Shown one piece after another: positions 16,312 through 35,454 of a stretch of 40,850 nt of DNA. The DNA is from Actinomycetota bacterium (lineage in GTDB: Bacteria; Actinomycetota; Thermoleophilia; Gaiellales; Gaiellaceae). The notes beneath the pieces were generated by a model. It searched no databases. It saw nothing but the letters and a program-made list of their open reading frames with translations, and had not been told where the DNA came from. The stretch lies in NCBI GenBank assembly GCA_003161615.1, contig PMOB01000017.1, positions 1 through 40,850 of the forward strand. Direction: 5' to 3'. Each line of letters begins with the position of its first letter. The stretch's first letter is position 1. The position numbers were made by a program, and so were the translations under genes.

Positions 16312-16336
16312 TACTAAGAGGAACCGGGATACGAGA

Positions 16337-17071: not shown

Positions 17072-17244
17072 GCGACCTCGGCAGCTCGAAGTTTGGCGAC
17101 CTCGCCGACAGGCGCACCTCGTAGAGCCGCCTACTTCCGAAGGCATTTGCATCGCAGGCTCAGAGTCCGTGAGAGTGGACGTGAGACATGAGTCTTTAGG
17201 TGGCGCTCAGCTCAGCTAACGCGAGCCCTCTCGGCTGGGGATTC

Positions 17245-18555: not shown

Positions 18556-18631
18556 GCTCGCCCTCCTGCCGAGTGGACTCGTCAACACTACTACGCGCCA
18601 CTCGGCTTCGCGATAACTCAGCAGAGGCGCA

Positions 18632-18991
18632 CTACGTCTCGGTCAGTCCCGTGACGCGTCGTGCCTCGTCGGCAACGACTATATCGCTGTCGGCTCTCAG
18701 CATCGTCAGCGTCTCACGCATGCCTGCGTCGCGCGCGATACCGCTGCGCTCCACGGACAATACGGCGAGAAGGCTGACTCGCGGATCGCCGTGGGAAGCC
18801 AGTATGACTGCGAACTCCCTAGCAGCATCCGGAAAAGATGGGAGAATATCGTTGAACAGTACCGCATCAACTTCTTCTTGCTGGGGTGAGTCGAGCTCCA
18901 GGCTCTGCCAGGCATACCGTATCGCTAGCGACTCGATATCTGCCCTAATTCGTGGTGCCGGCCCGTCGCCGCCAGCACTTGCTTCCTTCAT
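18632..18991 (-). CDS. Hypothetical 119-aa helical protein
   Basis: 119 aa, acidic and helical, with FPDAAREFAVILASHGDPRVSLLAVLSVE resembling a HEAT-like helical pair and a second one near VVADEARRV. It sits 76 bp upstream of the kinase gene, whose C-terminal region has a similar repeat-like style, and 63 bp downstream of the phosphorylase-like gene. No domain family is recognised. It may be a partner or inhibitor of the kinase. Confidence 0.55.
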   Translation of the reverse strand: MKEASAGGDGPAPRIRADIESLAIRYAWQSLELDSPQQEEVDAVLFNDILPSFPDAAREFAVILASHGDPRVSLLAVLSVERSGIARDAGMRETLTMLRADSDIVVADEARRVTGLTET

Positions 18992-19054
18992 TTCTACTTA
19001 CCTACTCTATGCTGACGCAAAGCTGCTGTCAATCACGACGCGATCTTTGCAATC

Positions 19055-20068: not shown

Positions 20069-20082
20069 GATCCCCCACGTTT

Positions 20083-21819
20083 CTAGAGTCGAGGGCTATG
20101 AATCTCATATAGCGGTCGCGTCTTCGGCGCTTCGTTCGGAGTTGCGATTACTCGATTGAGAAACGGCATATATGCATTCACCGCGACAGAAAAGTGCCGC
20201 ATAACCTGCATCATGTCGTCTCGCGTGTGATTCGAGGCGTTGAATTCATCTAACATCACGACGAAGGCTTTGCCGCGGGAGAGGTGGCGAAGCTGGCGCC
20301 GCCATGCTGCACTTCCACGTCTTTCGGGATCACCTAGACCTTGGGGACCGTGCTTTCTGACGTCGTTCAGGATGCGTCGCGGTATCTGGACGACTGTCAG
20401 GGGGCGATCGTCGAACCGAGCGGTCAATTTCTTCATGAGTTCTCGCACGCCGTCCTCTGCCGGGCAGACGAGCGCGACATCCCGCGTGGCGCCCATCTCT
20501 TGGAGGATCGTCTCATACCGCGTGGCGAGCCAATCGCCATGTTCTCGAAACATGCTGCGCGTGTCGGGAATCGCCTCGAAGAACTTTGCGCCCTCCGGAC
20601 CGTACGTCTCTTCTACCCAGGCTCCGCGTAGCGCCATGTCCCAAAAATCGTAGGTGCCCAACGCTCCGCCAACTAGCACGGCAGAGTCAAACAGCCCGTC
20701 TTCCGTAAAGACACGCTCCGGGTGCGGGACGCCCACCTTGCATTGGGGGCACGCAGCTCGCGGCAAACGAGCCAGATCGACCGATTCGATCGCTTTCACC
20801 TTGAACTTCCACCTTCCACGATGAATCTCCTCGCGTGCCGCGAAGACGGCGAACACGTGATCTGGAACAGGTTTGCCAAAGAGCCGTAATCTCGCCAACA
20901 TAGCCGTGACTGTACGTCCACTATTGACGACGTCGCAGATCACAATATTGCGGACGTCGGATAATTGGGCTTTTGCACGGGCCGGGTTCTTCAGCGCGAG
21001 TCGCCGCGGATCCTCCAGATCCAACGGCACGACGGGCAACGCCAGTTCGAAACCACAGAGAAGACCAAGGCGGTGCGCCCATTCCGACCGAGGCGCGGCG
21101 ATGACGAGGGTCGCACCTTGGCGTTCCGCCTTCGAGTAGCGAGATGCGATGTTCGCACTCAACTCGTCCGCGTACTGCGATAGATGTGCTCTCGGGTCGA
21201 AGAAGTATCTCGCACACTCCAACGGACCGCCAAAAGCCGTCGCGTCGAAGTGGCCTAGATGGCGAACGAACCTATCTCTACGCGGCTCTGGCGCATTCAG
21301 AGTGTCTTGGCGGAGCGCATACGCGCGCCGAAGCGGAGCCGACCAACGCCACGAGGCCTGACCAAACAGTTGACACTTACCGTCTGACGCAATTACGAAG
21401 AGCGCCCCCGCGGTCACATCGGAGACGACTGAAGACCAAAATGGTGAGTCTCGTGGTGGATGCTCCGGCAGCAATAAGGTGACGAGTCGCCGGGCATCGC
21501 GGGCGTACGTCCGCGCGATATCACCGATCTGCATGAGCAGCGGCTCGCGAAGGAGGTCATACGGTGCGCCGGAAAGGTCGAGTATTACGTGAGCGGCCCT
21601 TGGCACGCGGGAAACGGAGAGGTGCTCTCGAATGCTCGCAGGCGACCGCTCGAGGTCTTCAAACGTAAGGTACGTGGTGCCGCGCCTTGCCAGCGAATAG
21701 CTGTTTGGAGGTTCCCCCGTGATCTGCGTCGACAGCCACTTGTGGAACTCGACACGCTCAGGGCTCACGGGCTCGGTCACCGCGCGCCCAACTTGCACAA
21801 CGAACGCGACGACGTGCAT
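20083..21819 (-). CDS. Protein with phosphoribosyltransferase-like domains
   Basis: 578 aa from ATG 21819. Residues about 215-335 look like an orotate-type phosphoribosyltransferase: ATLVIAAPRSEWAHRLGLL, then the PRPP-loop stretch VICDVVNSGRT (293-303). The usual paired acidic residues read DV, so catalysis is doubtful. A second copy of the fold may lie at about 440-545, with VVMLDEFNASNHTRDDM in the loop position. Between them is a CPQC pair. The first 180 residues (AHVILDLSGAPYDLL) are of unclear fold. It lies 30 bp after the STAS-GHKL gene and 14 bp before the phosphorylase-like gene. A nucleotide-linked function is inferred; the reaction is unknown. A TTG at 21828 is an alternative start. 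Confidence 0.65.
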   Translation of the reverse strand: MHVVAFVVQVGRAVTEPVSPERVEFHKWLSTQITGEPPNSYSLARRGTTYLTFEDLERSPASIREHLSVSRVPRAAHVILDLSGAPYDLLREPLLMQIGDIARTYARDARRLVTLLLPEHPPRDSPFWSSVVSDVTAGALFVIASDGKCQLFGQASWRWSAPLRRAYALRQDTLNAPEPRRDRFVRHLGHFDATAFGGPLECARYFFDPRAHLSQYADELSANIASRYSKAERQGATLVIAAPRSEWAHRLGLLCGFELALPVVPLDLEDPRRLALKNPARAKAQLSDVRNIVICDVVNSGRTVTAMLARLRLFGKPVPDHVFAVFAAREEIHRGRWKFKVKAIESVDLARLPRAACPQCKVGVPHPERVFTEDGLFDSAVLVGGALGTYDFWDMALRGAWVEETYGPEGAKFFEAIPDTRSMFREHGDWLATRYETILQEMGATRDVALVCPAEDGVRELMKKLTARFDDRPLTVVQIPRRILNDVRKHGPQGLGDPERRGSAAWRRQLRHLSRGKAFVVMLDEFNASNHTRDDMMQVMRHFSVAVNAYMPFLNRVIATPNEAPKTRPLYEIHSPRL

Positions 21820-21849
21820 GAGCGGCAAGTTGTGGAGCAGCGACCGGCG

Positions 21850-23079
21850 TTAAGGCTGAGTCGGGATCCGCAACGTAATCATGTTCCCTGGGAAGTGAGT
21901 CTGGGTGTCGTACGACACGACCTTGGCCTTATAGCAACGACGCTGCTCGCCTTTTGTGGCCCGCTTGCGCTTCACGTTCATAAATAGATTGTCACTGCGC
22001 ACCGCGATCGTGCCGCCGAAGGTGTCCAACACAGAACGATAAAGCATACATAGTCCCATCCCCACTTCAGCATCCGAATCACCCTTGCCGACGAGCTCCT
22101 CGGCAACTTCCGAGTCCGGATGTTGCACTGGTTCAACACGGGCATAGCCTCTCTCGGAGATCCCCGGGAAGAAACTGGCAACCAGCAAATGAGCATCAGA
22201 TGGCTCCTCATCGCGGCTTGGCTCCCACGTGGTCTCAAGTTCGGTGATGTGCCCGTGTTCATCGACGACAAAAAGGTCGTCGATGTCGGTGTCATGCACT
22301 CGCACCCGATGGCCATGACGTAACCCGGCGCGCAGAGTCTCAACTATCCCTTCTCCGTCATCCCAGACGCTAATCGTCAGCCATCTGGGAGGTTCGCCCT
22401 TGGGTCCCTGCACGGAGGACACGACGCCGGCGACTTCGGCCTTTGGGTGTTGAATAGCATTGGCGAGTAGCTCAAATATGTGGACACGAGCTACGTCTGA
22501 ACCTGGGCCACGTAGATGGCGATTAAGGACTTTACTAATTAGCGGCTCTCGCCATTCCGTGTGTTGCTCGTCGAGCATCCTGTTGGAGTTGGTCTTGGTC
22601 GAAAGGTCGTAGATCATCAAACCGAAAAAACGCCGAGACTCCAGGTACTCGATGATCTGTTCGGCACTGTACGTTTCAAGTTCATCCTCGCTCGGACTCT
22701 TGTCAGCCATGACGTAGAAGCGTTGAGGCTCGCCGAAATAACGCGTATCCTGGCTGTGCACCAGGTCGTAAAAGCGGGCTCCGCTAGCTTCATACACGCC
22801 TTCCGGGAAACGCCAAGCCCGGAGGAAATCACGCACTTGCTGACTTTCGGGAAGACGTATACGAGTGGTCGCGCCACGTGACTGCCGATCCCGGACAATT
22901 GCAACCACGTGAAGCAACGCGACCGGGTCTATGAACGTCGAGGCGCTTAGATCGAGGACGAACTCCGAATCCAGGTCTTTGGCGTATCGCCTGGACCATG
23001 ACATCCAAAAAGCATCGAGCCTCTCGACGGTCACCTGCTCCGGAAGGACAAGGGTGTCGTCGAGCAAAGCGCTAGTCAT
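21850..23079 (-). CDS. STAS domain fused to GHKL ATPase domain
   Basis: 409 aa from ATG 23079. Residues about 35-95 (EFVLDLSASTFIDPVALLHVV) resemble a STAS domain. Residues about 185-405 form a GHKL (HSP90/histidine-kinase) ATP-binding domain with all main boxes: N box E203..N207 in FELLANAIQHP, G1 box WDDGEGI (239-245), G2 box VGMGL (339-343) and FGGTIAV. No phospho-acceptor His domain or receiver is seen. The mix recalls partner-switching regulators such as RsbT/RsbW with STAS partners, but here both parts are in one chain. It heads the cluster with PRTase-like and phosphorylase-like proteins and may act as its ATP-dependent switch. The frame is open to a TTG at 23136. Confidence 0.8.
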   Translation of the reverse strand: MTSALLDDTLVLPEQVTVERLDAFWMSWSRRYAKDLDSEFVLDLSASTFIDPVALLHVVAIVRDRQSRGATTRIRLPESQQVRDFLRAWRFPEGVYEASGARFYDLVHSQDTRYFGEPQRFYVMADKSPSEDELETYSAEQIIEYLESRRFFGLMIYDLSTKTNSNRMLDEQHTEWREPLISKVLNRHLRGPGSDVARVHIFELLANAIQHPKAEVAGVVSSVQGPKGEPPRWLTISVWDDGEGIVETLRAGLRHGHRVRVHDTDIDDLFVVDEHGHITELETTWEPSRDEEPSDAHLLVASFFPGISERGYARVEPVQHPDSEVAEELVGKGDSDAEVGMGLCMLYRSVLDTFGGTIAVRSDNLFMNVKRKRATKGEQRRCYKAKVVSYDTQTHFPGNMITLRIPTQP

Positions 23080-23293
23080 TGCCGCGATGGGACGCTCGGC
23101 GACCAAGGCGCCACAGCGCAAGAGAACCGAGTACAACTGGAACCGAGCGCCCGATCAGCGCACATCGACGACACATGAGGCCCCTTCCAAGACTATTGGT
23201 ACGCCCGTGAGGCGTGCACTTTTGAGCCAAAATTCGTCGGGCACCCGTCCGGCGAGACCAGCAAACCAAGCCTAGGGCACGTCTATGCTCGTG

Positions 23294-23908
23294 TCAAGCT
23301 CGCAGCGCGTACTGCCGCTCGGCTTCGCGGAGGTGCGCTAGAGCCTTGCTGAACGTCGATCCTGCGGCACCCTTAGGAAGGGCGATCTCGGTGAGGACGT
23401 ATTCCAAGGTGCCGATCGGCTCCAGTACCTGCTTGAGCCAGTCACTGCGGGAGACGCGAACTTGGAGCTCGGTCGCGCTCCCGCGTCCTACGCTCACGAA
23501 GCCCCATTCGCCGGGCTCCGGTGCCGACATCACCTTCCGATCCTCCGGGTCCGCCTCGCGCAGTACGTTCAACCATCCCGAGAGCACCAGCTTGAGATCA
23601 AGGCTGTCACCCGTGAACTGTTCACTGATGAACGACAGCGCCTGGCGGCTGACCGGAACGTCGATTGAGAAGTGGTAGTCACCGAACGAGGGCCATAGGC
23701 CGGTCACCGTGGCGACACCAAGAACCTCCTTCGCGCACTGAAGTTCAACGTGCAGCTGGTGAATCTGGACCTTCATCTTCTCGCGCGGCGTGCGAGCGAC
23801 GAGCTGGAACGACAAACGCGGCAACACGATGCCCCGGCCATAGACCGGGCCGGGAGTGATGTTCAACCAGCCGATTCCTGAACTGTCGCCGAGCTGAACG
23901 GAAAACAC
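23294..23908 (-). CDS. Hypothetical 204-aa protein, possibly C-terminally shortened
   Basis: 204 aa, beta-rich in the first half (LPRLSFQLVARTPREKMKVQ, GDYHFSIDVPVSRQALSF), with SRSDWLKQVLEPIGTLEYVL and a short final helix ending AERQYALRA. Proteins of this general build, as I recall them, continue beyond the AER helix, so this one may have lost its C-terminus, but that is from memory only. Start GTG 23908. It lies upstream of the STAS-GHKL gene with a 214-bp gap and may belong to the same transcript. No function is assigned. Confidence 0.6.
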   Translation of the reverse strand: MFSVQLGDSSGIGWLNITPGPVYGRGIVLPRLSFQLVARTPREKMKVQIHQLHVELQCAKEVLGVATVTGLWPSFGDYHFSIDVPVSRQALSFISEQFTGDSLDLKLVLSGWLNVLREADPEDRKVMSAPEPGEWGFVSVGRGSATELQVRVSRSDWLKQVLEPIGTLEYVLTEIALPKGAAGSTFSKALAHLREAERQYALRA

Positions 23909-23914
23909 GAGGCG

Positions 23915-24127
23915 ATCGTACTCTCGGGCCGAGGGGTCGACCTAGAAGGGCTGATCCAACTCGCCGGCTGGAGTTACGAGCTGTCACCGGAAGACGCGAT
24001 AGGTCTTCGTTACGTCCTGGCCAAGTCCGACGAGGCAGACTGTGATCGGTTCATAAAGGAGCTGGGGCCAGCGCAGCTTCCACCAAGTCCTGGCCTCTCC
24101 GGGCCTTCCTTAGGACGGGTTCTCTAA
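23915..24127 (+). pseudogene. C-terminal remnant of the 14515-15459 family
   Basis: The plus-strand frame reads GVDLEGLIQLAGWSYELSPE and ends at TAA 24125-24127. It matches VEGLIRLAGWRYEFTPEQA near the end of the 314-aa protein at 14515. No start codon or upstream part of the gene is present; the sequence before it belongs to the divergent 204-aa gene. It therefore looks like the tail of a deleted paralogue, left at the junction between the two cargo clusters. The remaining bases to 24303 carry no gene and should hold the promoter of the restriction operon. Confidence 0.6.
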
Positions 24128-24303
24128 GTTACAATAGGCACATATGGTGTCTAGAGTGGCAGCAACACATGCAGACGAAGCTATAGCCGTCCGGTTGGCT
24201 TCTTACTCTTGTGCTCCAAGGAGCGAGCGACGGTTAGAGGGCGGGTGGATGCGCACCGAGAAAACAGACGCGCCTCCCCTCATCGGGAAGGGCGACCGCT
24301 CTC

Positions 24304-27282
24304 ATGTCGCGTGAGGAAGCTTGCGACGTCGTCGGCCGCCTAGTTGAGCGGTACGTGGCGAATCGGGAGCACTACGAGCGAGTCGACGGCGGGTATAGCG
24401 AAGCACAAGCGCGCTACGACTTCATCACGCCGTTCCTCGAGGCGTTCGGTTGGGATGTGGCAAACCTCCAAGGGCTGGCCGACTCTGTCCGCGAGGTCCG
24501 CGTCGAAGAGAGTGTTGAGCTGCCGGACGAAAACGATCCGGCCAGAGCTGGTGCGGCCGGCAACCCGGACTACACCGTCCAGCCAGACGGTAGACGACGC
24601 TTTTTCGTTGAGGCGAAGAGGCCATCAGTGCAGATCGAAACAACAATCGCACCCGCGTATCAGACCCGGCGCTACGGATGGAGTGCGGGTCTCAGCGTCT
24701 CGGTACTGACGAACTTCGCCCAGCTCGCCATCTACGACTGCCGCGTCCAGCCGCGTTCGGGTGATGGGCCTGCGGTCGCCCGGATACCCGGCCGTCTCTA
24801 CTCATGCGAAGAATACGTCGACCGATTTGACGACCTGTGGCGTTCGCTCTCGAAGGAGTCCGTTCTCGATGGAACGTTCGACGCCGAGTTCGACGTCGAA
24901 CGCGAGCTTCGCGGCGAAGCGTCGTTCGATGCCGTCTTCCTCGGTCAAATCCGCGGTTGGAGACAGGGTCTTGCGACTGACATCGCACAGCGGAACCTCA
25001 CGCTGGACGCTCGTGCCGTCGGTCGAGCGGCGCAACGGCTGCTGAACCGGCTCGTCTTTTTGCGAGTGTGCGAGGACCGCAACCTCGAAAACTACGGGGA
25101 CCTTCTCAGGATCAACGACCGTGCCGCCCTCAACGATCGATTTCGTGAGGCCGACCGCATCTACAACGCGGGCCTCTTCCACGTTCTCGATGACGTGGAG
25201 GTCGACGCTGATCTGATCCATCAACTCGTCGCGCAGCTCTACTACCCCGAGAGTCCATATGCGTTCTCAGTGGTGGAAGCGCCAGTCCTCGCGTCGATCT
25301 ACGAACAGTTCCTAGCCGAGCGCGTCGAGCTTCGTGCTGACCGTTCTGTCGAACTTGTGCGGAAGCCTGAGATAGTCCACGCCGGTGGGATCGTTCCTAC
25401 ACCCGGATACATCGTCGATGCGATTCTTCAGCGAACGCTCACGCCGCTTTTTATCGAGCGCTCTCTCGACGAGATCCGCGAGCTGAAGCTCGCTGATCTG
25501 GCATGCGGATCAGGGACGTTCCTCCTTGCCGCCTTCCGATTGCTGCTTGCTCGCTTTGAGGCCGAGGGCGAAGAAGCATCACTGGAATTGAAGCATTCGC
25601 TGCTGCGCAACAACATCTTCGGAGTGGACATCGACCCCGAGGCGGTCGAAGTTACGAGATTCAACCTGTCGCTTGCCGTCGTCGAAGGCGAGACGCGCGA
25701 GCGTGTCGAACGGTTCGGTGCAGCGGCGCTTCCAGACATCGATGCCCAAATCGTCAGCGGCAACTCGCTCGTCACCTCCCACTTCCTTGAGGTCTTTCCC
25801 GAGGTACGCGACAACCGCGAAGAGCTACTTTCGACTAATCCGTTTGACTTCGAGACAGCCTTCGAAGGCGTGATGGCCGACGGCGGTTTCGACGTGATTG
25901 TCGGGAACCCGCCATATGTCCGCATCCAGACTCTGGCTGAGTTCGATCCTCTGCAGGTCGCCTATTTTCAGACCCACGCTCCATTTAAGAGCGCGCGATC
26001 TTTCAACTTCGATAAGTACTTGCTGTTCATCGAACGGGCGCTCGGGCTCCTCAATCCCAGCGGACGGTTCGGTTTCATTGTTCCGCATCGCTTCATGTCG
26101 ACGCTTCCTGGCCAGGCCGTCCGCGAGATTTTGAGCGAAGGCAAGCACGTCCGCGAGATCGTGCACTTTGGACATGAGCAGGTCTTCCCAGGAGCTACCA
26201 CCTACACATGCCTCCTAGTCGGCGGGAAGGAGCCGTCACCCGATTTCACCGTCCTGCTCGTGAGCGACCTTGATTCATGGCGTGACCACGGGACAGCGAC
26301 GAAGCGAGGTGTGTCCGCCGACGAGATTGATGCCGCTCCGTGGAGCTTCAGCCCCGACGACACTCAGGCGATCTTCGATCGGCTTCAGGCAGCGCATCAG
26401 ACGAAGCTCGTCGATGTCGCCGAGATCTTCGTCGGCGTCCAGACGAGCGCGGATGACATCTACCTGATCAAACCAAAAGCAATGAGCGCGACCGAGATCA
26501 CTTTCGATCACGCTGGGCGAGAGTGGCAGATCGAACGAGCGATCTGCCGGCAAGCTGTCCGAGATCGCAGGCTGAGACCCTACGACGGAAGGCCGGACCC
26601 TGATGCCTGGGCGATCTTCCCATACGACATAGACCGAACGGGGAAGAAGCCGAAAGCGGTCGTCATCTCTCCCGAGCGCATGCAGGCCGAGTTCCCACTT
26701 GCCTGGGACTACCTGACTGCAAACCGAGAGCAGCTCGAAGGTCGAAGCATCTCTCCACCCGGACCCGAGACCTGGTACAGGTACGGCCGCTCGCAGAGCC
26801 TCGCGAAGCTCGAAGGCGAAAAGATCCTCGTCAGAGTTATGTCAGTGATCCCCCAGTACAACTGGGACCCCGATGGACTGCTGGCGCCGGGCGGAGGAGA
26901 TGGCGGGCCGTACGGTTTCATCCGGCCTCACGCCGATAGCCCGGTTTCGCTTCCATTCCTGATTGCGCTTCTCTCGCATCCCGCGATCGATGCGATGGTG
27001 TGGGCGGCGAGCCCAAAGTACCGCGGCGGCTACTTCCCGCATCGCAAAGCATTTCTTGCCGGTCTCCCCGTGCCGACTCACGATGAGGCGCTCGCTGCGC
27101 GAATCGCGGGAATGACGCAGACGCTCATTGAAACCACCATCCGCGTTAGATCCGAAACAGACGCCCAGGCGCGACTCGTCCTTGAACGAGATCGTGCATC
27201 TCAGACATTGCGGATCGAGGCTGAGATTTCGACGTTACTTGGATTGTCAGACAGTGACCTGAAAGCGGTGGTAGGAGGATGA
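24304..27282 (+). CDS. Eco57I-like restriction-modification enzyme (type IIG-like)
   Basis: A 992-aa single-chain enzyme. The N-terminal nuclease domain has the PD-(D/E)XK site D89 in NPDYTV and E103-A-K105 in FVEAKRP, preceded by YDFITPFLEAFGWDV. The methyltransferase domain has ACGSGTF (400-406, AdoMet site) and catalytic NPPY (535-538), adenine-N6 type. The rest (about 690-960) should contain the target-recognition domain. It would both cut and methylate one DNA sequence. It is the first of four plus-strand genes joined by 4-nt overlaps with a second methyltransferase, a DUF6998-like protein and an OLD nuclease, a layout suited to phage defence. Confidence 0.92.
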   Translation: MSREEACDVVGRLVERYVANREHYERVDGGYSEAQARYDFITPFLEAFGWDVANLQGLADSVREVRVEESVELPDENDPARAGAAGNPDYTVQPDGRRRFFVEAKRPSVQIETTIAPAYQTRRYGWSAGLSVSVLTNFAQLAIYDCRVQPRSGDGPAVARIPGRLYSCEEYVDRFDDLWRSLSKESVLDGTFDAEFDVERELRGEASFDAVFLGQIRGWRQGLATDIAQRNLTLDARAVGRAAQRLLNRLVFLRVCEDRNLENYGDLLRINDRAALNDRFREADRIYNAGLFHVLDDVEVDADLIHQLVAQLYYPESPYAFSVVEAPVLASIYEQFLAERVELRADRSVELVRKPEIVHAGGIVPTPGYIVDAILQRTLTPLFIERSLDEIRELKLADLACGSGTFLLAAFRLLLARFEAEGEEASLELKHSLLRNNIFGVDIDPEAVEVTRFNLSLAVVEGETRERVERFGAAALPDIDAQIVSGNSLVTSHFLEVFPEVRDNREELLSTNPFDFETAFEGVMADGGFDVIVGNPPYVRIQTLAEFDPLQVAYFQTHAPFKSARSFNFDKYLLFIERALGLLNPSGRFGFIVPHRFMSTLPGQAVREILSEGKHVREIVHFGHEQVFPGATTYTCLLVGGKEPSPDFTVLLVSDLDSWRDHGTATKRGVSADEIDAAPWSFSPDDTQAIFDRLQAAHQTKLVDVAEIFVGVQTSADDIYLIKPKAMSATEITFDHAGREWQIERAICRQAVRDRRLRPYDGRPDPDAWAIFPYDIDRTGKKPKAVVISPERMQAEFPLAWDYLTANREQLEGRSISPPGPETWYRYGRSQSLAKLEGEKILVRVMSVIPQYNWDPDGLLAPGGGDGGPYGFIRPHADSPVSLPFLIALLSHPAIDAMVWAASPKYRGGYFPHRKAFLAGLPVPTHDEALAARIAGMTQTLIETTIRVRSETDAQARLVLERDRASQTLRIEAEISTLLGLSDSDLKAVVGG

Positions 27283-28886
27283 TGACTGTTGCTGCCGCTG
27301 CTGCTCGCAAGCTCAGAGGCGGGTATTACACTCCGCCGCCAATCGCCGAGTTCCTCGCGCGCTGGGCGGTTCGTGCTCCCGGAGATCGGGTGCTTGAGCC
27401 GAGCTGTGGTGACGGCGAGATTCTCTTCGCCGCGAAGAACCGACTGAGCGCGGTGGGCGGGGGCAAACTGATCGGTGTCGAGTTTGACGCGGCCGAAGCG
27501 AGAAAGGCTCGCGCGCGTGTGGGGCGTAGCGCGACCATTCACGTCTCGGACTTTTTCAGGCTCGCCGAGAAGAAGGCGGCGAGCTGGCAGTTCGATGCGG
27601 TTATTGGCAACCCACCGTTCATCCGCTACCAGTTTTTCCCCGAAGAGCACCGTGAGCCTGCATTCCGCATCATGGCCGACCAAGGCTTGAAGCCGAACCG
27701 TCTGACGAATGCCTGGGTGCCGTTCGTCGCTGCCTCGACGCGCATGCTTGCCCCTGGCGGTCGACTGGGATTTGTGATTCCGGCCGAGCTCATGCAGGTC
27801 AGTTACGCAGCCCAACTCCGCGCTTACCTCGCCGCTCAGTTCGCAGAGATCCGCTTGATCACGTTCCGCAAGCTCCTCTTCGAAGGTGTACAACAGGAGG
27901 TCGTCCTCGTCCTTGCGGAAGGAGCACGAAACGGCCCAGCCGCGATTCAGCTCGTGGAACTAGACGATGCGTTCGATCTCGCTTCTTTTGACGTACGTCC
28001 TGCCGCTTTGGCTACGGCGGACATGGACCATGCGACCGAAAAGTGGACGCAGTACTACCTGACACCATCAGAGCTTGAACTCGTTCGCTCGCTGCGCGAC
28101 AGACTCGACCTACCACGGCTCGGAGATGTAGCCGAGGTCGACGTCGGTGTCGTGACAGGCCGAAACGAGTTCTTCGTCCTTGAGCCATCCTCCGTCAGAA
28201 GGCACGGACTCGAGGCCCATACTCAGAAACTCGTCGGCCGTTCCGCGCAGCTGCGCGGCATCATGTTCTCGGAGGCTGATTGGGAAGGGCTTGCGAGCGC
28301 TGACGCACGGTGTCTGTTACTGACGCTTGAGGACGCGCCTGCTCACACCCTCTCGAAAGCGGCGCGGCGGTACATCTCACTGGGTGAGGCCGAGGGTCAT
28401 CACATGGGTTACAAGTGCCGGACTCGCCAAAACTGGCACCGAGTCCCCTCAGTGTGGTCCCCTGATGCGTTCTTGTATCGCCAAATCCACGACGCTCCAC
28501 GACTTGTGGTCAATCATTCGGGCGCCACTTCGACGGACACGATCCACCGCGTCCGGATGAGAAATGGGCTTGATCCAGCCGATCTCTCAGGAAGTCTCTT
28601 CAATTCGCTCACGTTCGCATTCAGCGAGTTGTACGGGCGCAGCTATGGAGGGGGAGTCCTTGAACTCGAACCAACGGAGGCCGAGCTTCTTCCCGTGCCG
28701 ATCGCTACCACGCTCGACGTACGGGAGTTGGACCGTCTCGTCCGAGCCGGACGACCTACGGACGCTCTTGATCTGACCGACTCCGCATTGCTGCACGGAA
28801 CACTCGGCCTTGACCATCAGGACGTCGCACATCTCAGAACCATCTGGATGAAGCTGCGGGATCGGCGACTAGGTCGCAAGAAATGA
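27279..28886 (+). CDS. Gamma-class N6-adenine DNA methyltransferase
   Basis: A 535-aa protein with GGYYTPPPIAEFL at the N-terminus, AdoMet motif EPSCGDGEIL, and catalytic NPPF in VIGNPPFIRYQ, in gamma-class order. A long C-terminal part (about 250-535) contains a likely target-recognition domain (GDVAEVDVGVVTGRNEFFVL). It lacks a nuclease domain. It overlaps the restriction enzyme's stop by 4 nt and the next gene's start by 4 nt, so all are made together. It may protect the second strand of an asymmetric site recognised by the upstream enzyme, a known need of type IIG systems with non-palindromic sites. Confidence 0.9.
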   Translation: MMTVAAAAARKLRGGYYTPPPIAEFLARWAVRAPGDRVLEPSCGDGEILFAAKNRLSAVGGGKLIGVEFDAAEARKARARVGRSATIHVSDFFRLAEKKAASWQFDAVIGNPPFIRYQFFPEEHREPAFRIMADQGLKPNRLTNAWVPFVAASTRMLAPGGRLGFVIPAELMQVSYAAQLRAYLAAQFAEIRLITFRKLLFEGVQQEVVLVLAEGARNGPAAIQLVELDDAFDLASFDVRPAALATADMDHATEKWTQYYLTPSELELVRSLRDRLDLPRLGDVAEVDVGVVTGRNEFFVLEPSSVRRHGLEAHTQKLVGRSAQLRGIMFSEADWEGLASADARCLLLTLEDAPAHTLSKAARRYISLGEAEGHHMGYKCRTRQNWHRVPSVWSPDAFLYRQIHDAPRLVVNHSGATSTDTIHRVRMRNGLDPADLSGSLFNSLTFAFSELYGRSYGGGVLELEPTEAELLPVPIATTLDVRELDRLVRAGRPTDALDLTDSALLHGTLGLDHQDVAHLRTIWMKLRDRRLGRKK

Positions 28887-29377
28887 ACGGGTCGGGCGAG
28901 GCTTCGCGGCCCTCCTCGAGGAGACTCGTGAAGCTCATCGGTGAACTCAAGCTACTTGCCAGGGAGTACCGTGACCTCACCGGTCGTCCCCTGGGCATCA
29001 CAGGCGAAGTCGCTGAATACGAAGCTGCGCGTTTGTTAGGTGTCGAGCTATCAAGCGTTCGTCAGTCTGGATACGACGCAATCCGCAAGACACCTCAAGG
29101 CGACCAACTCGTTCAGATCAAGGGCCGCTGCATTCTTCCTCAGTCGAAGCAAGGGCAACGCATGGGCCGGATCGACCTCGGCAAGGAGTGGGACGTCGTT
29201 CTGCTCGTACTGCTGGATGACAACTTCGACGCCACCGCGATCTACGAAGCTGACCGCGCGCTAGTCACAAACGCTCTTTTGACACCCGGATCGAAGGCCC
29301 GCAACGAACGAGGCGCGCTCGGCGTCAGCAAGTTCAGATCAATTGGCCACAAAGTGTGGCCGCATGAGCAGCTATGA
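28883..29377 (+). CDS. DUF6998-like PD-(D/E)XK protein
   Basis: 164 aa. LAREYRDLTGRPLGITGEVA and EYEAARLLGVEL are followed by GYDAIRK and LVQIKGRCILP, giving the acidic-D-QxK arrangement of a PD-(D/E)XK nuclease fold (Glu in GEVAEYE, Asp in GYDAI, Gln-Ile-Lys). The C-terminal NERGALGVSKFRSI is also typical of the DUF6998-type family as I remember it. It could be an active nuclease or a structural DNA-binding subunit. It is coupled by 4-nt overlaps to the methyltransferase before it and the OLD nuclease after it. Confidence 0.75.
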   Translation: MNGSGEASRPSSRRLVKLIGELKLLAREYRDLTGRPLGITGEVAEYEAARLLGVELSSVRQSGYDAIRKTPQGDQLVQIKGRCILPQSKQGQRMGRIDLGKEWDVVLLVLLDDNFDATAIYEADRALVTNALLTPGSKARNERGALGVSKFRSIGHKVWPHEQL

Positions 29378-31383
29378 GAATTAGCCATGTTCGAATCAGC
29401 AACTATCGCTGCCTGAAGAACATTGACCTCGACCTCGATTCCTACACCACGCTCATTGGCGCGAATGGGACGGGCAAGTCCTCCGTCCTGTACGCGCTCG
29501 ACTGGTTTTTCAACGGCAGTCACATGGACGACAATGACGTTCATGCTGGACCTCGAGACGACCGCGAGGAGTTAGGCGCCCCCGATCCAAACGGAGCAAT
29601 CACGCCAGCTCGGATTGAAGTTGAAGTCACTTTCGATCAAGTCGATGACTCCGACCGGCAAGAACTAGGTCGCTATGGGCGCGGCGAAACTGTCCGGTTG
29701 CGGCGGTCATGGCAGACCGACGGGAAAGACAAGCTCATCGGTAACTCCACTCAGGGCCCAGGGTTCGCTGCGGTACGTGCGGCAACGAAGATCCCTGAGA
29801 TACGCCAGGGCTACAACGAACTGCGAAAAGATTTAACGGAGCTTCCGGCGGTGACGGCAAAAGACGACATCATGAACGCCCTCACGAGCTGGGAAAATAA
29901 TCCGGCGAACGTCGAGAAGCTCGTCGACGTGGAGGACGACGATGCGACGCATTTGTTCGGGTTCGCTGGTGAGGACGTTCTCAGCAAGCGATTCCGCCTC
30001 ATCCTCGTTCCCGCCGCAGTCGACATCGCGGCCGCGATCGGAACGGCCGGCAAGGGATCGGTCCTATCCCAGCTAATCGGCGCATTGACGACTGAAGCCG
30101 TGAACGCAGCGAAACGAGACTGGGAGACGAAGCATCAAGAACAACTCGACGAGCTAGAGAACACGATCCGGCAGAGCGTCGAAGACGCGACGAAGGGGCA
30201 CATCGCCAAGGTCAATCGTCACTTCTCGGAATTGGTTGCAACCGGTGAGGTCAAGTTCACTGGCGAACCTCCTGCGTGGTCGCTGCGCGGTGAGGGAACT
30301 GTCCGTGCCGACGTCATGGTCAACGGCATGGAGACTGATGTTGCTCGACAGGGCCACGGCGTTCAGCGGGCACTGATGATGGCCGTCCTGCAGACGATGG
30401 TCGGCGTTGACGCTGAAATCAGTGATTCCGACGATGGCATCGTAGTAGCCGAGGAGATCCCTCACGTCGGCGATGTTCCGAGACGTACGCCGCCGGCCCT
30501 CCTGCTTTGTCTTGAGGAGCCCGAGATTTACCAGCATCCGGTCCGTGCGCGTCACTTCGCCCGGGTACTGACCAGGCTTTCCTCCGAGGCGGGCTCGCAG
30601 GTGCTTCTCGCCACGCACAGTCCGTACTTCGTGCTGCCCTCGCAATTCGCATCGCTGCGTAGATTCTCCGCGGACCGAGGTGTTGCGGAAGTGGTGTCTA
30701 CCTCACGGGGAGCTATCGCCGCGGCTTCTGGGGTAGACGAAGCTCGCGTCCTGAAATGTATGGAGAAGGAAGTGCCGCGAACCTTCTCTGAGGGCTTCTT
30801 CGCCGACGCGGTTGTGCTCGTCGAGGGTGATACGGACCGCGCAGTGATTGAGACCCTTGCAGAACGGCTTGATAAGCCACTCGATGCTCGTGGGATCGCC
30901 GTCCTTTCAATGGACAGCAAGCAGAATCTGCGCGTGCCTGCGGCGATCCTGGGTGGCATCGGCGTCCCGGTTTATGTTGTTGCGGATGGAGACGCTCTGG
31001 GAGGCAAGCGTAAGCATCCACTGGATGACGAGAAGGCTAAGGAGGTAGCTGGTTCACACAAGGCAGCGACAGAAACGCTCTTGAACTGGCTCCCGAAGGA
31101 TGTCACGAAACGTCACGGGGAGATCCCGGCGGCCTTCGAAGACCCAACCGCCATCACGAGCGGGTGGACTCTCTTTCACGACGATCTTGAAGAAGAGCTT
31201 GCTGGCTGGACAGGATTCGAGGCAGAGCTCAAAGCCGCGGGCGGTGAGCTGCGCGAGAAGAATCTTGCGGCATACAGGAGCGCCACGTATTCGTCTCAGC
31301 TGGACGCATTACCCGAGGCGCTCCGTGAGCTTGTCGAGGCACTGGTCGCATTTGGAGTCCGGAGCAAGCCCGCAAAGAAATAG
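29374..31383 (+). CDS. OLD-family ATP-dependent nuclease
   Basis: 669 aa. The ABC/SMC-like ATPase has Walker A GANGTGKS (29-36), a coiled-coil middle, and Walker B/signature LLLCLEEPEIYQHP followed by LLATHSPYFVLP (about 370-415). The C-terminal TOPRIM nuclease domain begins with VVLVEGDTDRAVIE and includes VYVVADGD, the acidic metal ligands of OLD enzymes. OLD nucleases act in phage exclusion, alone or with partners (as in Gabija or PARIS-type systems). Here it is the last gene of a four-gene restriction operon. No UvrD-like helicase of the Gabija type is present nearby. Confidence 0.92.
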   Translation: MRISHVRISNYRCLKNIDLDLDSYTTLIGANGTGKSSVLYALDWFFNGSHMDDNDVHAGPRDDREELGAPDPNGAITPARIEVEVTFDQVDDSDRQELGRYGRGETVRLRRSWQTDGKDKLIGNSTQGPGFAAVRAATKIPEIRQGYNELRKDLTELPAVTAKDDIMNALTSWENNPANVEKLVDVEDDDATHLFGFAGEDVLSKRFRLILVPAAVDIAAAIGTAGKGSVLSQLIGALTTEAVNAAKRDWETKHQEQLDELENTIRQSVEDATKGHIAKVNRHFSELVATGEVKFTGEPPAWSLRGEGTVRADVMVNGMETDVARQGHGVQRALMMAVLQTMVGVDAEISDSDDGIVVAEEIPHVGDVPRRTPPALLLCLEEPEIYQHPVRARHFARVLTRLSSEAGSQVLLATHSPYFVLPSQFASLRRFSADRGVAEVVSTSRGAIAAASGVDEARVLKCMEKEVPRTFSEGFFADAVVLVEGDTDRAVIETLAERLDKPLDARGIAVLSMDSKQNLRVPAAILGGIGVPVYVVADGDALGGKRKHPLDDEKAKEVAGSHKAATETLLNWLPKDVTKRHGEIPAAFEDPTAITSGWTLFHDDLEEELAGWTGFEAELKAAGGELREKNLAAYRSATYSSQLDALPEALRELVEALVAFGVRSKPAKK

Positions 31384-31707
31384 GCAGATGGGGACAGGCG
31401 TCTTCTCAGAGGAAGTAGGTGCGAGCCCGAGTAGGCGCACCAGGGCCACCGGAGGGTTTGAAAGCTGTACTCAATCAACCCAGGCCGCCTAACCAGGTGT
31501 GTCCGCACCGCGGACGATCATCGGCCAATTCAATGACTCGTTCGCCAATCGACGGGCCGCCTGTCCAACTTGCGACGCGACGCCTGGCACGAAAACGACC
31601 GGTCAGCCTGACAAGGCGGCGGGAGGCGGTTAGAGTGCTGCGTCGAAAGAGAAAGAAGATCGCCGCCCCGAAGGGCGGCGATCTTGAAGGAGTAGAACTG
31701 CGAAGCC
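31384..31707. other. Gene-free stretch with a bidirectional terminator
   Basis: About 320 bp between the convergent OLD and 39-aa genes. The frames present are short and show no protein character. It contains the perfect hairpin at 31656-31685, which can stop transcription from both sides. Confidence 0.5.
31656..31685 (-). terminator. 13-bp perfect hairpin with a TTCG loop
   Basis: AAGATCGCCGCCC pairs fully with GGGCGGCGATCTT. On the minus strand the loop is C(TTCG)G, a very stable tetraloop, and a pyrimidine-rich run CTTTCTCTTTC follows. It ends the 39-aa gene and probably also the OLD transcript from the other side. Confidence 0.8.
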
Positions 31708-31827
31708 CTACTTCTTCTCCTTGACCGTCGTCTTCGGGTGGCTCTTCCCGTAGCGGGGAGAGACGTACCGGCCGGTGACCGCCGAGCGGTACTTACCACC
31801 CGAAGACGATGAACCTTTTTTCGCCAC
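31708..31827 (-). CDS. 39-aa basic small protein
   Basis: GTG 31827 has AGGAGG 9 nt upstream. The protein reads MAKKGSSSSGGKYRSAVTGR and then YVSPRYGKSHPKTTVKEKK: basic, no hydrophobic part, with Gly/Ser/Tyr/Lys repeats. A strong ribosome site and a dedicated terminator show that it is a real transcription unit. Small proteins with the YRSAVTGRYV pattern occur in many bacterial genomes, often with doubtful transporter names; this one has no membrane segment. Function unknown. Confidence 0.75.
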   Translation of the reverse strand: MAKKGSSSSGGKYRSAVTGRYVSPRYGKSHPKTTVKEKK

Positions 31828-32001
31828 TAATTTTCACCTCCTTCCTGACTGATAGCGGTAGGGTGAACGTACCTATGTTCCCTCCCACTCGCAACGCAGC
31901 TACCCCTCGCTTGCGCCGGCGCTACGGATACCCTTATGGAGGTTGTACTTATACTTAGCGGCGGCATCACTCCGCGGCAGCTGCCGTCATGAGCGTCACC
32001 T

Positions 32002-32862
32002 TTGTGGCCGGTAGTAACCTGTAACCTTGCAGATGCCCAAAAGAAAGCCATAGCTACTACCGTTACTCATAGCCGATCGCCCCGCCGCAAGGGCACGCAA
32101 GTGGTCCGGAGCGAGCGAGCCGAAACGCTCGCCCTTGCCGCGTCGAGGCGTGTCAAAAATCGCGCGACTCCTGTCCGCAATCAGTTCGTCGCAGCCGCCG
32201 GCGAGGCACCCATACCGCCACTCGCACAGATGCTCCGTGGCGGACGCGGTGGCGAGGTCCGCCTGAAGCTCTACCTTGCGCTGCTGTGGATTGCGGCGTC
32301 GCCGCCGCACGACGTCTCATTTCCGGCGCGCGCATGGGCCGAGCTTCTCGATCTTCCGGACCCCGCGGGCCGCGGCGAACGTCGCGTGCGCGACGCGATC
32401 GACTGGCTCGAGAAGCGCCGCTTCATCCACGTCGAGCGCAACAGCGGTCGGCCACCACGAATCTTCCTCCTGCGCGAGGACGGGTCGGGCGAGCCGTACT
32501 CCATCCCTGGAAAGGCCGAACATGGAAAAGACGGCAAGTTCCCTTCCGAGCATCTGTACAAGACCCTCCCCCCAACGTTCTGGACAGCAGGATGGGGCGT
32601 CGTCCTGTCCGGGGCCGCAATCGCGATCTTGCTCGCCCTCCTCCAACTCGACCGAAGTGACGGCGAAGCCGTGTGGGTAAGCCCCGCCGAGGCACGACGG
32701 CGCTTCGGCCTCTCCGAGGACACATGGACAAAGGGATCGAAAGAACTTCGGGCCAGGGGTCTTCTGACGGTTGGGCGGAAGCCCGTATCTGAGGAATTCG
32801 GCTGGCGACGTGTCCGGAACACGTACCAACTCGCGCACGACGTTCTCGCGTCCGAACAGTAA
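32002..32862 (+). CDS. Winged-helix protein, possible replication initiator
   Basis: 286 aa in the longest form. From about residue 60 it has two winged-helix-like modules: EVRLKLYLALLWIAASPPHD then RRVRDAIDWLEKRRFIHVER, and near the C-terminus WVSPAEARRRFGLSEDTWTK then ELRARGLLTV. Two such modules in one chain recall plasmid Rep proteins, but no iteron array is seen beside it. The GTG at 32002 lacks a ribosome site; the GTG at 32101 is another possible start. The frame continues open after its TAA (see 32863-33048). A DNA-binding role is likely, a replication role only possible. Confidence 0.6.
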   Translation: MWPVVTCNLADAQKKAIATTVTHSRSPRRKGTQVVRSERAETLALAASRRVKNRATPVRNQFVAAAGEAPIPPLAQMLRGGRGGEVRLKLYLALLWIAASPPHDVSFPARAWAELLDLPDPAGRGERRVRDAIDWLEKRRFIHVERNSGRPPRIFLLREDGSGEPYSIPGKAEHGKDGKFPSEHLYKTLPPTFWTAGWGVVLSGAAIAILLALLQLDRSDGEAVWVSPAEARRRFGLSEDTWTKGSKELRARGLLTVGRKPVSEEFGWRRVRNTYQLAHDVLASEQ

Positions 32863-33048
32863 GACGGGCCGGGCGACGAGCCGAACACCCTCGCGCGCAG
32901 GAATGCTGCAGGTGCTTCCGGCACGCTGCTCATCGTCGACTCCGACGACTCGGGCGTGACGCTGGTCGACGACAAGAGGCACGAGAATGTCCACACGACG
33001 GTCGCGTGGGATGACATCAAGCGACTCTCCGTGACCGGCTACTCGTAA
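32863..33048 (+). other. In-frame open stretch after the stop of the winged-helix gene
   Basis: After TAA 32860-32862 the same frame stays open to TAA 33046-33048 and has protein-like content (LLIVDSDDSGVTLVDDKRHE, then VAWDDIKRLSVTG, resembling a small beta domain), but has no ATG, and its only GTG is late. It could be the end of a longer ancestral protein cut by a stop, a readthrough extension, or chance. Confidence 0.35.
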
Positions 33049-33068
33049 GATATGCCTAAGTTGTCCTC

Positions 33069-33638
33069 ATGGCTGCGGCGGAGAACACGAAAAAGCGTGG
33101 CACTGGCCTCACGGGTGCGGCGGGCGAGTACTACGTAGCCGCCGAGTTGTCGCTGCGAGGGTGGCTCGCGACTCCAACGATCAAGAACGCGCCAGGAACG
33201 GACGTACTAGCGCAGTACCGCGAGGCGGGAATTCTCGTGGCCATCCAGACGAAGACTGCGAGCTTCGGCAACCAGTTCATGATGAACGCGGGCATCGAGC
33301 GGCCGTCGATGGCGGATAACGAGTGGGTCGTCCTTGTCAAGCTTCACGAGATCAAGAGCCGCCCCAGCTTCTTCGTCGTCCCACTCAATCATGTAGCAGC
33401 GGCGGCTTACGCGCAGCACAGGCGTTGGCTCGGGACGCCGGGTCAGGGAGGCCAAGAGCACCGCGATAACCCGCGCCGGACGTTGATCGCGAAGCGGTTT
33501 CTCGACTACGAGGATCGATGGGACCTCCTCCTCCAACCGACAAGCGCGGTGCCGAATCTGCTCGGCGCCGACTACGCGGAGTGCATCGCCGCGTGGGGAG
33601 TCCCGCCCGGGCACCCTGGTATGCCGTCCCGCGAGTAG
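33069..33638 (+). CDS. PD-(D/E)XK-like protein of unknown role
   Basis: 189 aa. TGAAGEYYVAAELSLRGW, APGTDVLAQY and VAIQTKTAS give the E...D...QxK layout of a PD-(D/E)XK nuclease core at residues 15-65. The rest (SFFVVPLNHVAAAAYAQHR) is typical of small stand-alone members whose function is unknown. The ATG at 33069 has no clear ribosome site. It is followed by the 55-aa zinc protein and the cyclase on the same strand, with gaps of about 110 bp each, so these may be separate units. Confidence 0.65.
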   Translation: MAAAENTKKRGTGLTGAAGEYYVAAELSLRGWLATPTIKNAPGTDVLAQYREAGILVAIQTKTASFGNQFMMNAGIERPSMADNEWVVLVKLHEIKSRPSFFVVPLNHVAAAAYAQHRRWLGTPGQGGQEHRDNPRRTLIAKRFLDYEDRWDLLLQPTSAVPNLLGADYAECIAAWGVPPGHPGMPSRE

Positions 33639-33747
33639 ACGCGCCCCCAAGGGGTCGTGAGGACGCCAGGTTGATCCCCGAGTGTCCGCTCCGTAGTGTC
33701 CGATGGCCCTGCGAACATTCGTTCGCAAGCTACGAAAGAAGGTTGGC

Positions 33748-33915
33748 ATGAAGATCGCGCCATTCCACACTGTCACGCCCGAGGAAGAGGACGGCCATCG
33801 GGATGTCTACCACGACAACAGTGACTGTCATTACGGTCGGGCGATCAAGCCCGAGAACCGTGTACCAGGGACAGGCGGACGGCCTAAGTGCGATCGGTGC
33901 AAGGAACTCAGCTAG
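33748..33915 (+). CDS. 55-aa small protein with Cys/His zinc-type motif
   Basis: The ATG at 33748 has AAGAAGG 5 nt upstream. The protein contains DVYHDNSDCHYG and ends GRPKCDRCKEL, giving candidate ligands His/Cys at DNSDCHYG and a CxxC pair. It is cytoplasmic, with no membrane helix. Proteins with the DNSDC..G...GTGGRP.C..C pattern are small and uncharacterised. It may be an accessory of the neighbouring nuclease-like or cyclase gene. Confidence 0.65.
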   Translation: MKIAPFHTVTPEEEDGHRDVYHDNSDCHYGRAIKPENRVPGTGGRPKCDRCKELS

Positions 33916-34032
33916 GTCGGAGGCGGGCCGCCGCAGCACCAGCTGGAGCTAGCGCGTTTTTTTGCGGAGGGTCAGGGCCCCGCGAACGGCTGCAAAGTAG
34001 ATGCAAGATCTCGTCCGGCCAGGAGGTAGTTG

Positions 34033-34851
34033 GTGACGATCAAAGACGACTTTCGCTCGCTCGAAGACTTCCTGGTCTCGTCGCATCTGACGGTGGACGC
34101 GGCGCTCGACGACGGGGCGGGCGCAACCATGCCGGTCAAAGGGAGGGAGATCAACGCCACGGTGCTCTTCGCCGACATGGCGAACTTCTCGGGACGAACG
34201 GTGGACATGACGCCCACGGAGACGCTGATCTTCGTTCAATGGTTCTTTGCGTGGATCGGCGCGGAAGCGCTCAGGCACGGCAAAGGCATCATCGACAAGT
34301 ACATCGGTGACGAAGTGATGCTCGTCTTCTCGGACGAGTTCGGTTCAGACGATCCCTTTCGGGAGGCGGTTGAGACGGCTCGATGGATGGCGGACCACGA
34401 TCCGTGGAGCTTCTGTCCGCACATCGGCATCGCGTCCGGAGCGGTAGTGGTCGGCTACGTAGGTACGCCCCTGAAATACAACTGCTCGGTCTTCGGGTCT
34501 CCGGTTGCGGTAGCCGCGCGGATGGCAAGCGTGAAACCTGACTACGACGGCACGTACTCAAGCTCCATCGCGTTCCCAGACAGCGAGTGGGGCGAGCGCG
34601 ACTTCGATGAGGTATTCCCTCCTAAGAAATACCGCAACCCAGACGGAACGACCTTCACGCAGCCTCACTCATGGCAGATGCTCGAGGCGCGAACAGCGGA
34701 GCTGAAGAACCTGCCGTCGATGTCAATCCGCGAGATCGTGAAGACGTCGATCAACTTCTCGTTTACTCCTGTCGAAGCCGCCGCCAAGGAGGTACTAGAC
34801 GACATCAAACGCGCCGGGCGTTACTGGCCCCACGAGCCATCGCGGGTATGA
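34033..34851 (+). CDS. Class III nucleotidyl cyclase, soluble
   Basis: 272 aa from GTG 34033, with AGGAGG 6 nt upstream. The catalytic domain (about 35-190) has the first metal Asp in ATVLFADMANFS, the second in KYIGDEVMLVF, and GIASGAVVVGYVG in the later strand. There is no membrane, HAMP or other sensor part. Stand-alone cyclases of this class make cAMP or cGMP for signalling. Pyrimidine cyclases of Pycsar defence systems share the fold, but the usual Pycsar effector (TM or TIR with a cyclic-nucleotide-binding domain) is not visible here. The base made cannot be told by eye. Confidence 0.85.
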   Translation: MTIKDDFRSLEDFLVSSHLTVDAALDDGAGATMPVKGREINATVLFADMANFSGRTVDMTPTETLIFVQWFFAWIGAEALRHGKGIIDKYIGDEVMLVFSDEFGSDDPFREAVETARWMADHDPWSFCPHIGIASGAVVVGYVGTPLKYNCSVFGSPVAVAARMASVKPDYDGTYSSSIAFPDSEWGERDFDEVFPPKKYRNPDGTTFTQPHSWQMLEARTAELKNLPSMSIREIVKTSINFSFTPVEAAAKEVLDDIKRAGRYWPHEPSRV

Positions 34852-35062
34852 CTTCGCAGCGGTCGACGCGCCCAGTTCTTAGTGGTCGGTGCCGCCCAAG
34901 CCTCTTGTGTCTTTGAGGGAACCTGTCGTACGCTGAAGATGCGCCTGCTGAGTTCGCGGATCGCGCTACATGCGAGGGTTCGGAGCTCAAGCAGGCGGGC
35001 CAGAGGTTCCGGCGGGTTTGAAAGATGCGGCCGTGCCGGGCTGAAACCATTGAGCGTGAAGC
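34852..35062. other. Gene-free stretch near the right end
   Basis: About 210 bp between the cyclase gene and the segment that completes the recombinase in the circle. Only short frames without protein character are present, and no clear promoter or terminator stands out. Confidence 0.4.
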
Positions 35063-35403
35063 TCACTCGGGCCGTAGCAGCCGGTAGTGACCGTGACGGG
35101 TCCGGACGAAGAGCGGCCGTGCCCCCTTCGAGCGGGTAAGAAGGTAATCCGAGACCGAGTAACGGGACACACTTCCGCCGAGCAGGCGCTCGACCTCGGC
35201 GTGGATCGCCTTCACACGCATCTCCGAGTCCGTCTGCGCGAGGACGGACACGACTGCGCCGCCGACCGTCCCGAACTTGCGGCGTCCGTCCGGCCATCCA
35301 GCCGGCGCAGAGCTTGAAGAATGTCGGCGTTGGTCCGACGTGTCACACGTGAGACACTGGAGAAGGTCGGCGAACGAGTGGTTTGAGAGTCCTCCACTCA
35401 GGC
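35063..35403 (-). CDS. Right-end segment: would-be C-terminus of the recombinase in the excised circle
   Basis: The minus-strand frame comes in from the att core (GLNKET) as LVGLSGGLSNHSFADLL and ends with a small helix-turn-helix-like domain: MRVKAIHAEVERLLGGSVSR then DYLLTRSKGARPLFVRTRHG and HYRLL. In the circle, the recombinase frame from 6488 passes the core and enters here without a shift (698 codons including stop, 697 aa). In the integrated state this piece is cut from the recombinase. It may be silent, or read from ATG 35221 (52 aa) or a GTG at 35464. The winged-helix-like tail could bind DNA. Confidence 0.65.
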
Positions 35404-35454
35404 CCACCAAAGTTTCCTTATTCAAACCAAGGTGGTGGTTTGAAGGTCCTCCAC
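35378..35454. repeat. 20-bp near-identical repeats flanking attR
   Basis: GTGGTTTGAGAGTCCTCCAC (35378-35397, element side) and GTGGTTTGAAGGTCCTCCAC (35435-35454, chromosome side) differ at two positions and flank the core 57 bp apart. They could be recombinase-binding arms shared by attP and attB, or a trace of an older event. Confidence 0.5.
35404..35430. repeat. attR: right copy of the 27-bp att repeat
   Basis: CCACCA, A, then AGTTTCCTTATTCAAACCAA, 26 of 27 positions identical to 4736-4762 in the same orientation. Beyond it the sequence returns to chromosome-type intergenic DNA and a lipoprotein gene. Confidence 0.9.

Follow-up and report, generated by a model that had tools for sequence, protein, structure and literature searches.

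A candidate layered defence operon on an integrative element: an Eco57I-type restriction-modification pair coupled to a predicted cytosine-modification-dependent nuclease and an OLD nuclease

When the BREX system is combined with the type IV enzyme BrxU, protection is complementary and the two layers stop different phages (PMC8565348). A survey of BREX loci has proposed OLD and TOPRIM proteins as backup effectors (PMC12839542). As summarised in PMC13261556 and PMC12839542, P2 Old responds to the inhibition of RecBC, and the trigger of PARIS is the anti-restriction protein Ocr. Among modification-dependent enzymes, the purified restriction enzyme Pam7902I cuts GCS^SGC in DNA containing 5-methylcytosine (5mC) and is active on DNA containing 5-hydroxymethylcytosine (5hmC); its activity is lost upon alanine replacement of E39, D59, K74, D98 or D106 and weakened in Q72A (PMC8281217). 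Eco15I and NhoI belong to the BisI family and cut cytosine-methylated GCNGC (PMC11347163). Here, we describe an operon of an Actinomycetota bacterium (assembly GCA_003161615.1, contig PMOB01000017.1) in which relatives of some of these proteins are encoded together; the window, i.e., the whole stretch of DNA that was analysed, spans 40,850 nucleotides.

The four genes lie on the forward strand at 24304-27282 (gene 1, 992 aa), 27279-28886 (gene 2, 535 aa), 28883-29377 (gene 3, 164 aa), and 29374-31383 (gene 4, 669 aa). As reported in a preliminary description of this DNA, all four open reading frames are present on the same strand with overlapping junctions. Each junction reads ATGA. The start of gene 2 contains a tandem ATG (27279 and 27282), and an AGGAGG at 27273-27278 abuts the first of these and lies 3 nt ahead of the second. 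Because the Shine-Dalgarno spacing is better there, gene 2 may start at 27282, with an overlap of only 1 nt with gene 1 (TGATG); the two genes are coupled whichever ATG is used. The Shine-Dalgarno sequences of genes 3 and 4 are weak or absent, which fits translational coupling. Short gene overlaps are frequent within bacterial operons, and the arrangement points to a translationally coupled operon, which is in itself no proof of a protein complex. The four genes are taken to be genuine since they share the same codon-position GC profile and all have family matches in Pfam and PADLOC (E-values from 3e-7 to 4e-240). No promoter above chance level was found near the operon.

Gene 1 (24304..27282, +) encodes an Eco57I-type IIG restriction-modification (RM) enzyme. 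It matches the PADLOC model PDLC03604 (REase_MTase_IIG) over its full length (E = 4e-240) and the Pfam family Eco57I (2.6e-38), and it fuses an N-terminal PD-(D/E)XK nuclease, with the motif D89...E103-A-K105 (PD...EAK) near the N terminus, to a gamma-type N6-adenine methyltransferase domain that carries DLACGSG (398) and NPPY (535). It is adjoined by a separate M.Eco57I-like N6-adenine methyltransferase, encoded by gene 2 (27279..28886, +), which matches PADLOC PDLC03267 (1.4e-182) and Pfam M_Eco57I_C (8e-40) and contains EPSCGDG (40) and NPPF (111). These matches and motifs bear out the preliminary assignment of an Eco57I-type RM enzyme with a second methyltransferase and, judged from sequence, genes 1 and 2 are an ordinary Eco57I-type system. 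Pairs of this type are also present on plasmids of Xanthomonas, rhizobia, Acinetobacter, Escherichia, and others, and genes 3 and 4 were absent beside them in the loci examined. A single-sequence scan of viral contigs with gene 1 returned no match.

Gene 3 (28883..29377, +) is assigned above the cut-off to the Pfam family DUF6998, the name it had been given at first, and matches mREase_II ('methyl-directed type II restriction enzyme'; 7.5e-46) in PADLOC. This call can be sharpened to that of a relative of Pam7902I and Esp638I. Pam7902I (WP_054068722), which is encoded in one of the homologue loci of gene 3 (L137), shares 49% identity with it over 148 aa, and itself matches the mREase_II model at 6e-55 and DUF6998 weakly. 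All six of its mutated residues are kept in gene 3 at an offset of +6 (E45, D65, Q78, K80, D104, and D112), where they make up an E...D-X12-QxK active site with further acidic residues; across 23 homologues, these positions vary little or not at all. A profile of 11 homologues, compared with all solved structures, matched only Eco15I and NhoI; similarly, NhoI and Eco15I were the top Foldseek matches of an AlphaFold2 model of gene 3 (pLDDT 88), with an E-value of 6.5e-8 and loose superpositions. The active-site residues and this fold match uphold the earlier view of gene 3 as a PD-(D/E)XK protein. It is predicted to be an Esp638I/Pam7902I-type modification-dependent (5mC/5hmC) restriction enzyme that probably cuts cytosine-methylated DNA, the specificity being transferred from Pam7902I across 51% divergence. 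DUF6998, a Pfam family of unknown function, is now tied to characterised cytosine-methylation-dependent restriction enzymes. Given this kinship, the restriction of phages with modified cytosines is a more likely role for gene 3 than the second killing step that the preliminary description had suggested. The sole C5-methyltransferase match in the host genome is located at G000:C28:67814-68824, adjoining a Vsr-like nicking endonuclease gene; compatibility with gene 3 predicts that the site of this methyltransferase is not of the GCSSGC type.

Homologues of gene 3 were found in 27 plasmid records and at 167 candidate chromosomal loci, the best 80 of which were examined together with 11 plasmid and 21 viral loci (112 in all, some cut by contig ends). 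Relatives of gene 1 or gene 2 were present near none of these homologues, whether chromosomal (80), plasmid (11), or viral (21), and a distant OLD was found in a few examined loci only. The neighbourhoods are varied and unrelated to one another. A fixed partner of gene 3 was rejected on the grounds that the flanking genes differ, a DUF3800-like protein of 390 aa recurring only in Pseudomonas. In addition, no gene 3 relative was detected in 60 related genomes. These data also bear on the hypothesis of a conventional type II pair made up of genes 2 and 3, in which gene 3 would now cut unmodified DNA and gene 2 would protect its site. The methyltransferase-endonuclease order with an ATGA overlap is what such a pair would show, and a few BisI homologues do cut unmodified DNA (PMC4926085). 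However, the conserved partner of gene 2 on plasmids is of the gene 1 type, no gene 2 homologue adjoins any gene 3 homologue among the examined loci, and a GC-only site is unlikely to be protectable by an adenine methyltransferase; we consider this pairing very unlikely.

At the sensitivity used, no second example of the four-gene set was found in genome contigs, plasmids, or viral contigs, and no named system in the libraries matches it, in agreement with the preliminary description, to which the set was not known as a named system. That description had proposed a composite defence and had made it depend on the co-conservation of the OLD and DUF6998 genes with the two methyltransferase genes. 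Such co-conservation is absent across the examined loci, which argues that no four-gene system is maintained as a unit; its view of the genes as one operon, joined by overlaps, is upheld. The four-gene set is private to the present element at the sensitivity used: its parts are of known kinds, and their combination was found nowhere else among the loci searched, which leaves a joint function without evolutionary support. A dedicated new four-component system, with DUF6998 and OLD as obligatory subunits of the RM machine, is consistent with the tight overlaps and with nothing else here; since the set has no second example in any of the three collections, it is extremely unlikely.

Gene 4 (29374..31383, +) encodes an OLD-family nuclease, that is, an ABC ATPase fused to a TOPRIM domain with catalytic acidic residues. 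It matches AAA_15 (1.5e-38) and OLD-like_TOPRIM (3e-19) in Pfam and Old in PADLOC (1.6e-54), and its motifs, which are conserved among homologues, comprise Walker A (29), RQGHG (325), Walker B (376-384), H415, the TOPRIM residue E484, and D538/D540; on all these points the first identification as an OLD nuclease was correct. Its best relative in the PDB, by sequence and by fold, is 6p74, the Class 1 OLD of Thermus scotoductus. Gene 4 is not an isolated gene of the Class 1 kind, as it overlaps the RM operon and its relatives repeatedly have RM neighbours.

Other systems with related nucleases were considered and rejected. For Gabija (Class 2 OLD), the UvrD-like helicase GajB is lacking, the genes downstream encoding a protein with a weak HTH match and a 189-aa protein without a Pfam match. 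For the Retron-Eco8 type (Class 3 OLD), no reverse transcriptase family is present among the neighbours, and Rfam gives tRNAs only and no retron RNA. For PARIS, the TOPRIM of gene 4 is OLD-like (PF20469), and DUF4435 (AriB) is present neither as a separate gene nor as a fusion. The 189-aa protein (33069-33638, +) resembles a PD-(D/E)XK nuclease, and a 30% relative of it is encoded about 0.9 kb upstream of the gene 3 homologue in L070.

A single-sequence scan of genome contigs with the OLD protein gave no match; homologues of 29-50% identity were gathered with alignment-based and genome searches, from plasmids, viral contigs, and genomes of the host's phylum. Adjacency was scored at a distance of at most 5 kb in 21 loci, a sample that leaves out the studied window and two near-duplicates. 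Because ISP, type III, and N6 methyltransferases escaped strict motif filters, the filter was loosened, in the same way for the control loci, and the OLD-adjacent RM matches were confirmed by Pfam/PADLOC or by record annotation. A confirmed RM or BREX methyltransferase was present within this distance in 8/21 loci: type III RM in G490, Citrobacter, and Aeromonas, a C5-methyltransferase with Vsr in G667, type ISP in Citricoccus, an M.Eco57I-like methyltransferase in Paraburkholderia, HsdM (type I) in G1022, and PglX/PglY (BREX type 2) in G1099. In seven of these eight loci the RM or BREX genes are co-directional with OLD; a ninth candidate, from Rhodococcus, is an ISP gene that may be broken and lies on the opposite strand. 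By the same motif test, 8/112 gene 3 loci and 0/20 random regions were positive (Fisher test against the OLD loci, p = 6e-4 and p = 0.003, respectively, for a small sample of loci that are not fully independent). On a maximum-likelihood tree of OLD, the RM-adjacency label changes eight times, and well-supported branches force at least six of these changes, because of which an inherited OLD-RM pair was rejected. The recruitment of OLD beside RM is thus repeated and reversible.

Several neighbourhoods deserve description in their own right. In the BREX type 2 locus of G1099 (L180, 703-16137), the OLD gene lies between PglX and PglY. The closest OLD relative (G195, 50%) adjoins PDC-M24 candidate genes and not RM; at 8612-12080 of L133, from this genome, OLD comes after the candidate defence genes PDC-M24A/M24B, and it may belong with some PDC-M24 loci. 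An OLD of the gene 4 clade is directly followed by a DUF2130 gene in L170 and L046, and by a gene of similar size in the viral loci L143 and L146, which makes an OLD-DUF2130 pair possible.

The preliminary description had also suggested that OLD acts when restriction is blocked. The recurrence of OLD relatives beside several RM and BREX types supports this indirectly, the mechanism itself being a proposal. In a wider form, which we put forward as a rather doubtful conjecture, the OLD clade filed as isolated Class 1 would be a portable guard of DNA-modification defences, recruited repeatedly beside any type of RM or BREX system, that kills or arrests the cell once a phage disables restriction, in the manner of PARIS. 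The recurrent attachment of OLD to restriction systems is sequence evidence that makes a role as 'backup for restriction' directly testable. Counter-evidence to OLD-RM cooperation comes from Pseudomonas aeruginosa, in which the OLD protein PA1939 was dispensable for an RM system (PMC6945700), and from the position of the closest OLD relative beside PDC-M24 genes.

It is also possible, with a real but less than even chance, that the OLD protein is an independent cargo nuclease which defends alone, for instance by nicking DNA or cleaving tRNA, and has no tie to the RM genes beyond the common transcript. No RM gene lies within 5 kb in 12-13 of the 21 other OLD loci, that of the closest relative among them, RM adjacency was often gained and lost, and anti-phage phenotypes have been described for a Class 1 OLD protein on its own (PMC13261556). 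Against such independence, RM adjacency is about five times commoner than for another defence gene family and is mostly co-directional, and gene 4 overlaps the operon here. Alternatively, OLD could be a processive partner that degrades the ends produced by the IIG enzyme or by gene 3, as might be expected from the closest solved structure, the T. scotoductus OLD, which acts as a 5'-3' exonuclease and can also linearise circles (PMC10568477). This role is unlikely: the relatives adjoin many RM types as well as BREX loci, BREX defence has been described as independent of nucleolytic degradation (PMC10568477), and the RM system of strain PAO1161 is functional without OLD (PMC6945700).

The operon is carried by an integrative element of about 30.7 kb (4743..35430), bounded by a 20-nt direct repeat, AGTTTCCTTATTCAAACCAA, at 4743-4762 and 35411-35430. 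The element sits immediately downstream of tRNA-Arg(TCG), at its 3' end; in congeneric genomes, the tRNA-Arg and the right flank are about 0.7-0.8 kb apart, as expected of an empty site. Its GC content is 0.60-0.64, vs. 0.68-0.69 outside. A large serine recombinase and probable integrase (4581..6746, -; Pfam Resolvase, Recombinase, and Zn_ribbon_recom), the end of whose reading frame crosses the left attachment site, is encoded together with two proteins assigned by Pfam to transfer or replication, a Replic_Relax protein (8694-9491, -) and a TraG/TrwB-like coupling ATPase (9634-11784, -). With these three proteins in the element, the operon is likely mobile. Apart from the operon, the element also encodes a further N6/N4 DNA methyltransferase (7543-8697, -) and a close cluster (19055-23136, -, and 17245-18588, -) of a STAS/HATPase protein, proteins of 581 and 337 aa, and then a Ser/Thr kinase. 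The 581-aa protein has a weak phosphoribosyltransferase match and the 337-aa protein is nucleoside-phosphorylase-like; a PADLOC scan of three of these proteins (STAS/HATPase, 581 aa, and 337 aa) gave no match. The cluster may be a further, as yet uncharacterised cassette for defence or signalling.

We consider it somewhat better than an even chance that the four genes make up a modular layered defence operon on this 30.7-kb element. What the sequences show is its anatomy: what each gene encodes, the catalytic residues, the arrangement of the operon, its place in a mobile element, and the repeated adjacency of OLD and RM genes; from it we infer the activity of each protein, the specificity of gene 3, the trigger and target of OLD, and all cooperation between the layers. 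In the first layer, formed by genes 1 and 2, the IIG enzyme would cut DNA unmethylated at its own site, while this enzyme and the gene 2 methyltransferase would place N6-methyladenine on host DNA. In the second, gene 3 would cut DNA at GCSSGC-like sites that carry several 5-methyl- or 5-hydroxymethylcytosines, and phages that modify their cytosines to evade the first layer would thereby be exposed; the host N6-methyladenine laid down by genes 1 and 2 should leave gene 3 untriggered. In the third, the OLD ATPase-nuclease, made by translational coupling, would cleave nucleic acid upon a trigger of its own, most likely an infection that survives or inhibits restriction, perhaps in a backup role. 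The triggers of P2 Old and PARIS make such a restriction-failure trigger plausible. A compact operon of this kind could stop phages whether their DNA is unmodified or carries modified cytosines.

With known systems, the locus shares parts and departs in their arrangement. Like Eco57I-type IIG RM systems, it pairs a fused REase-MTase of about 990 aa with a free-standing methyltransferase (about 535 aa) that carries the M.Eco57I C-terminal domain, but here two more genes are coupled downstream. Gene 3 resembles the type IIM enzymes Esp638I and Pam7902I, distant relatives of BisI, in its identity to Pam7902I (49%), the six mutated residues, and the NhoI/Eco15I fold; it differs in being embedded in an m6A RM operon, whereas its homologues stand in varied neighbourhoods, and in a specificity that is predicted. 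Gene 4 shares with the Class 1 OLDs (P2 Old, T. scotoductus OLD) the ABC ATPase and TOPRIM, the catalytic motifs, the relationship to 6p74, and the lack of a UvrD helicase or reverse transcriptase partner, but these are described as isolated single genes and gene 4 sits in an RM operon. PARIS (AriA/AriB) likewise combines an OLD-type ATPase with a TOPRIM nuclease under a guard-of-restriction logic, whereas gene 4 is one fused protein with an OLD-like TOPRIM and no separate AriB. In BREX loci with OLD/TOPRIM auxiliary effectors, an OLD nuclease is also placed with methylation-based defence (PMC12839542); that survey covers BREX and BREX-related loci, whereas the system here is a type IIG RM. 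Finally, the BREX-BrxU island (pEFER) similarly joins restriction of unmodified DNA and a modification-dependent nuclease in one locus; here, an Eco57I-type RM replaces BREX, a Pam7902I-like nuclease replaces the GmrSD-type BrxU, and an OLD nuclease is added.
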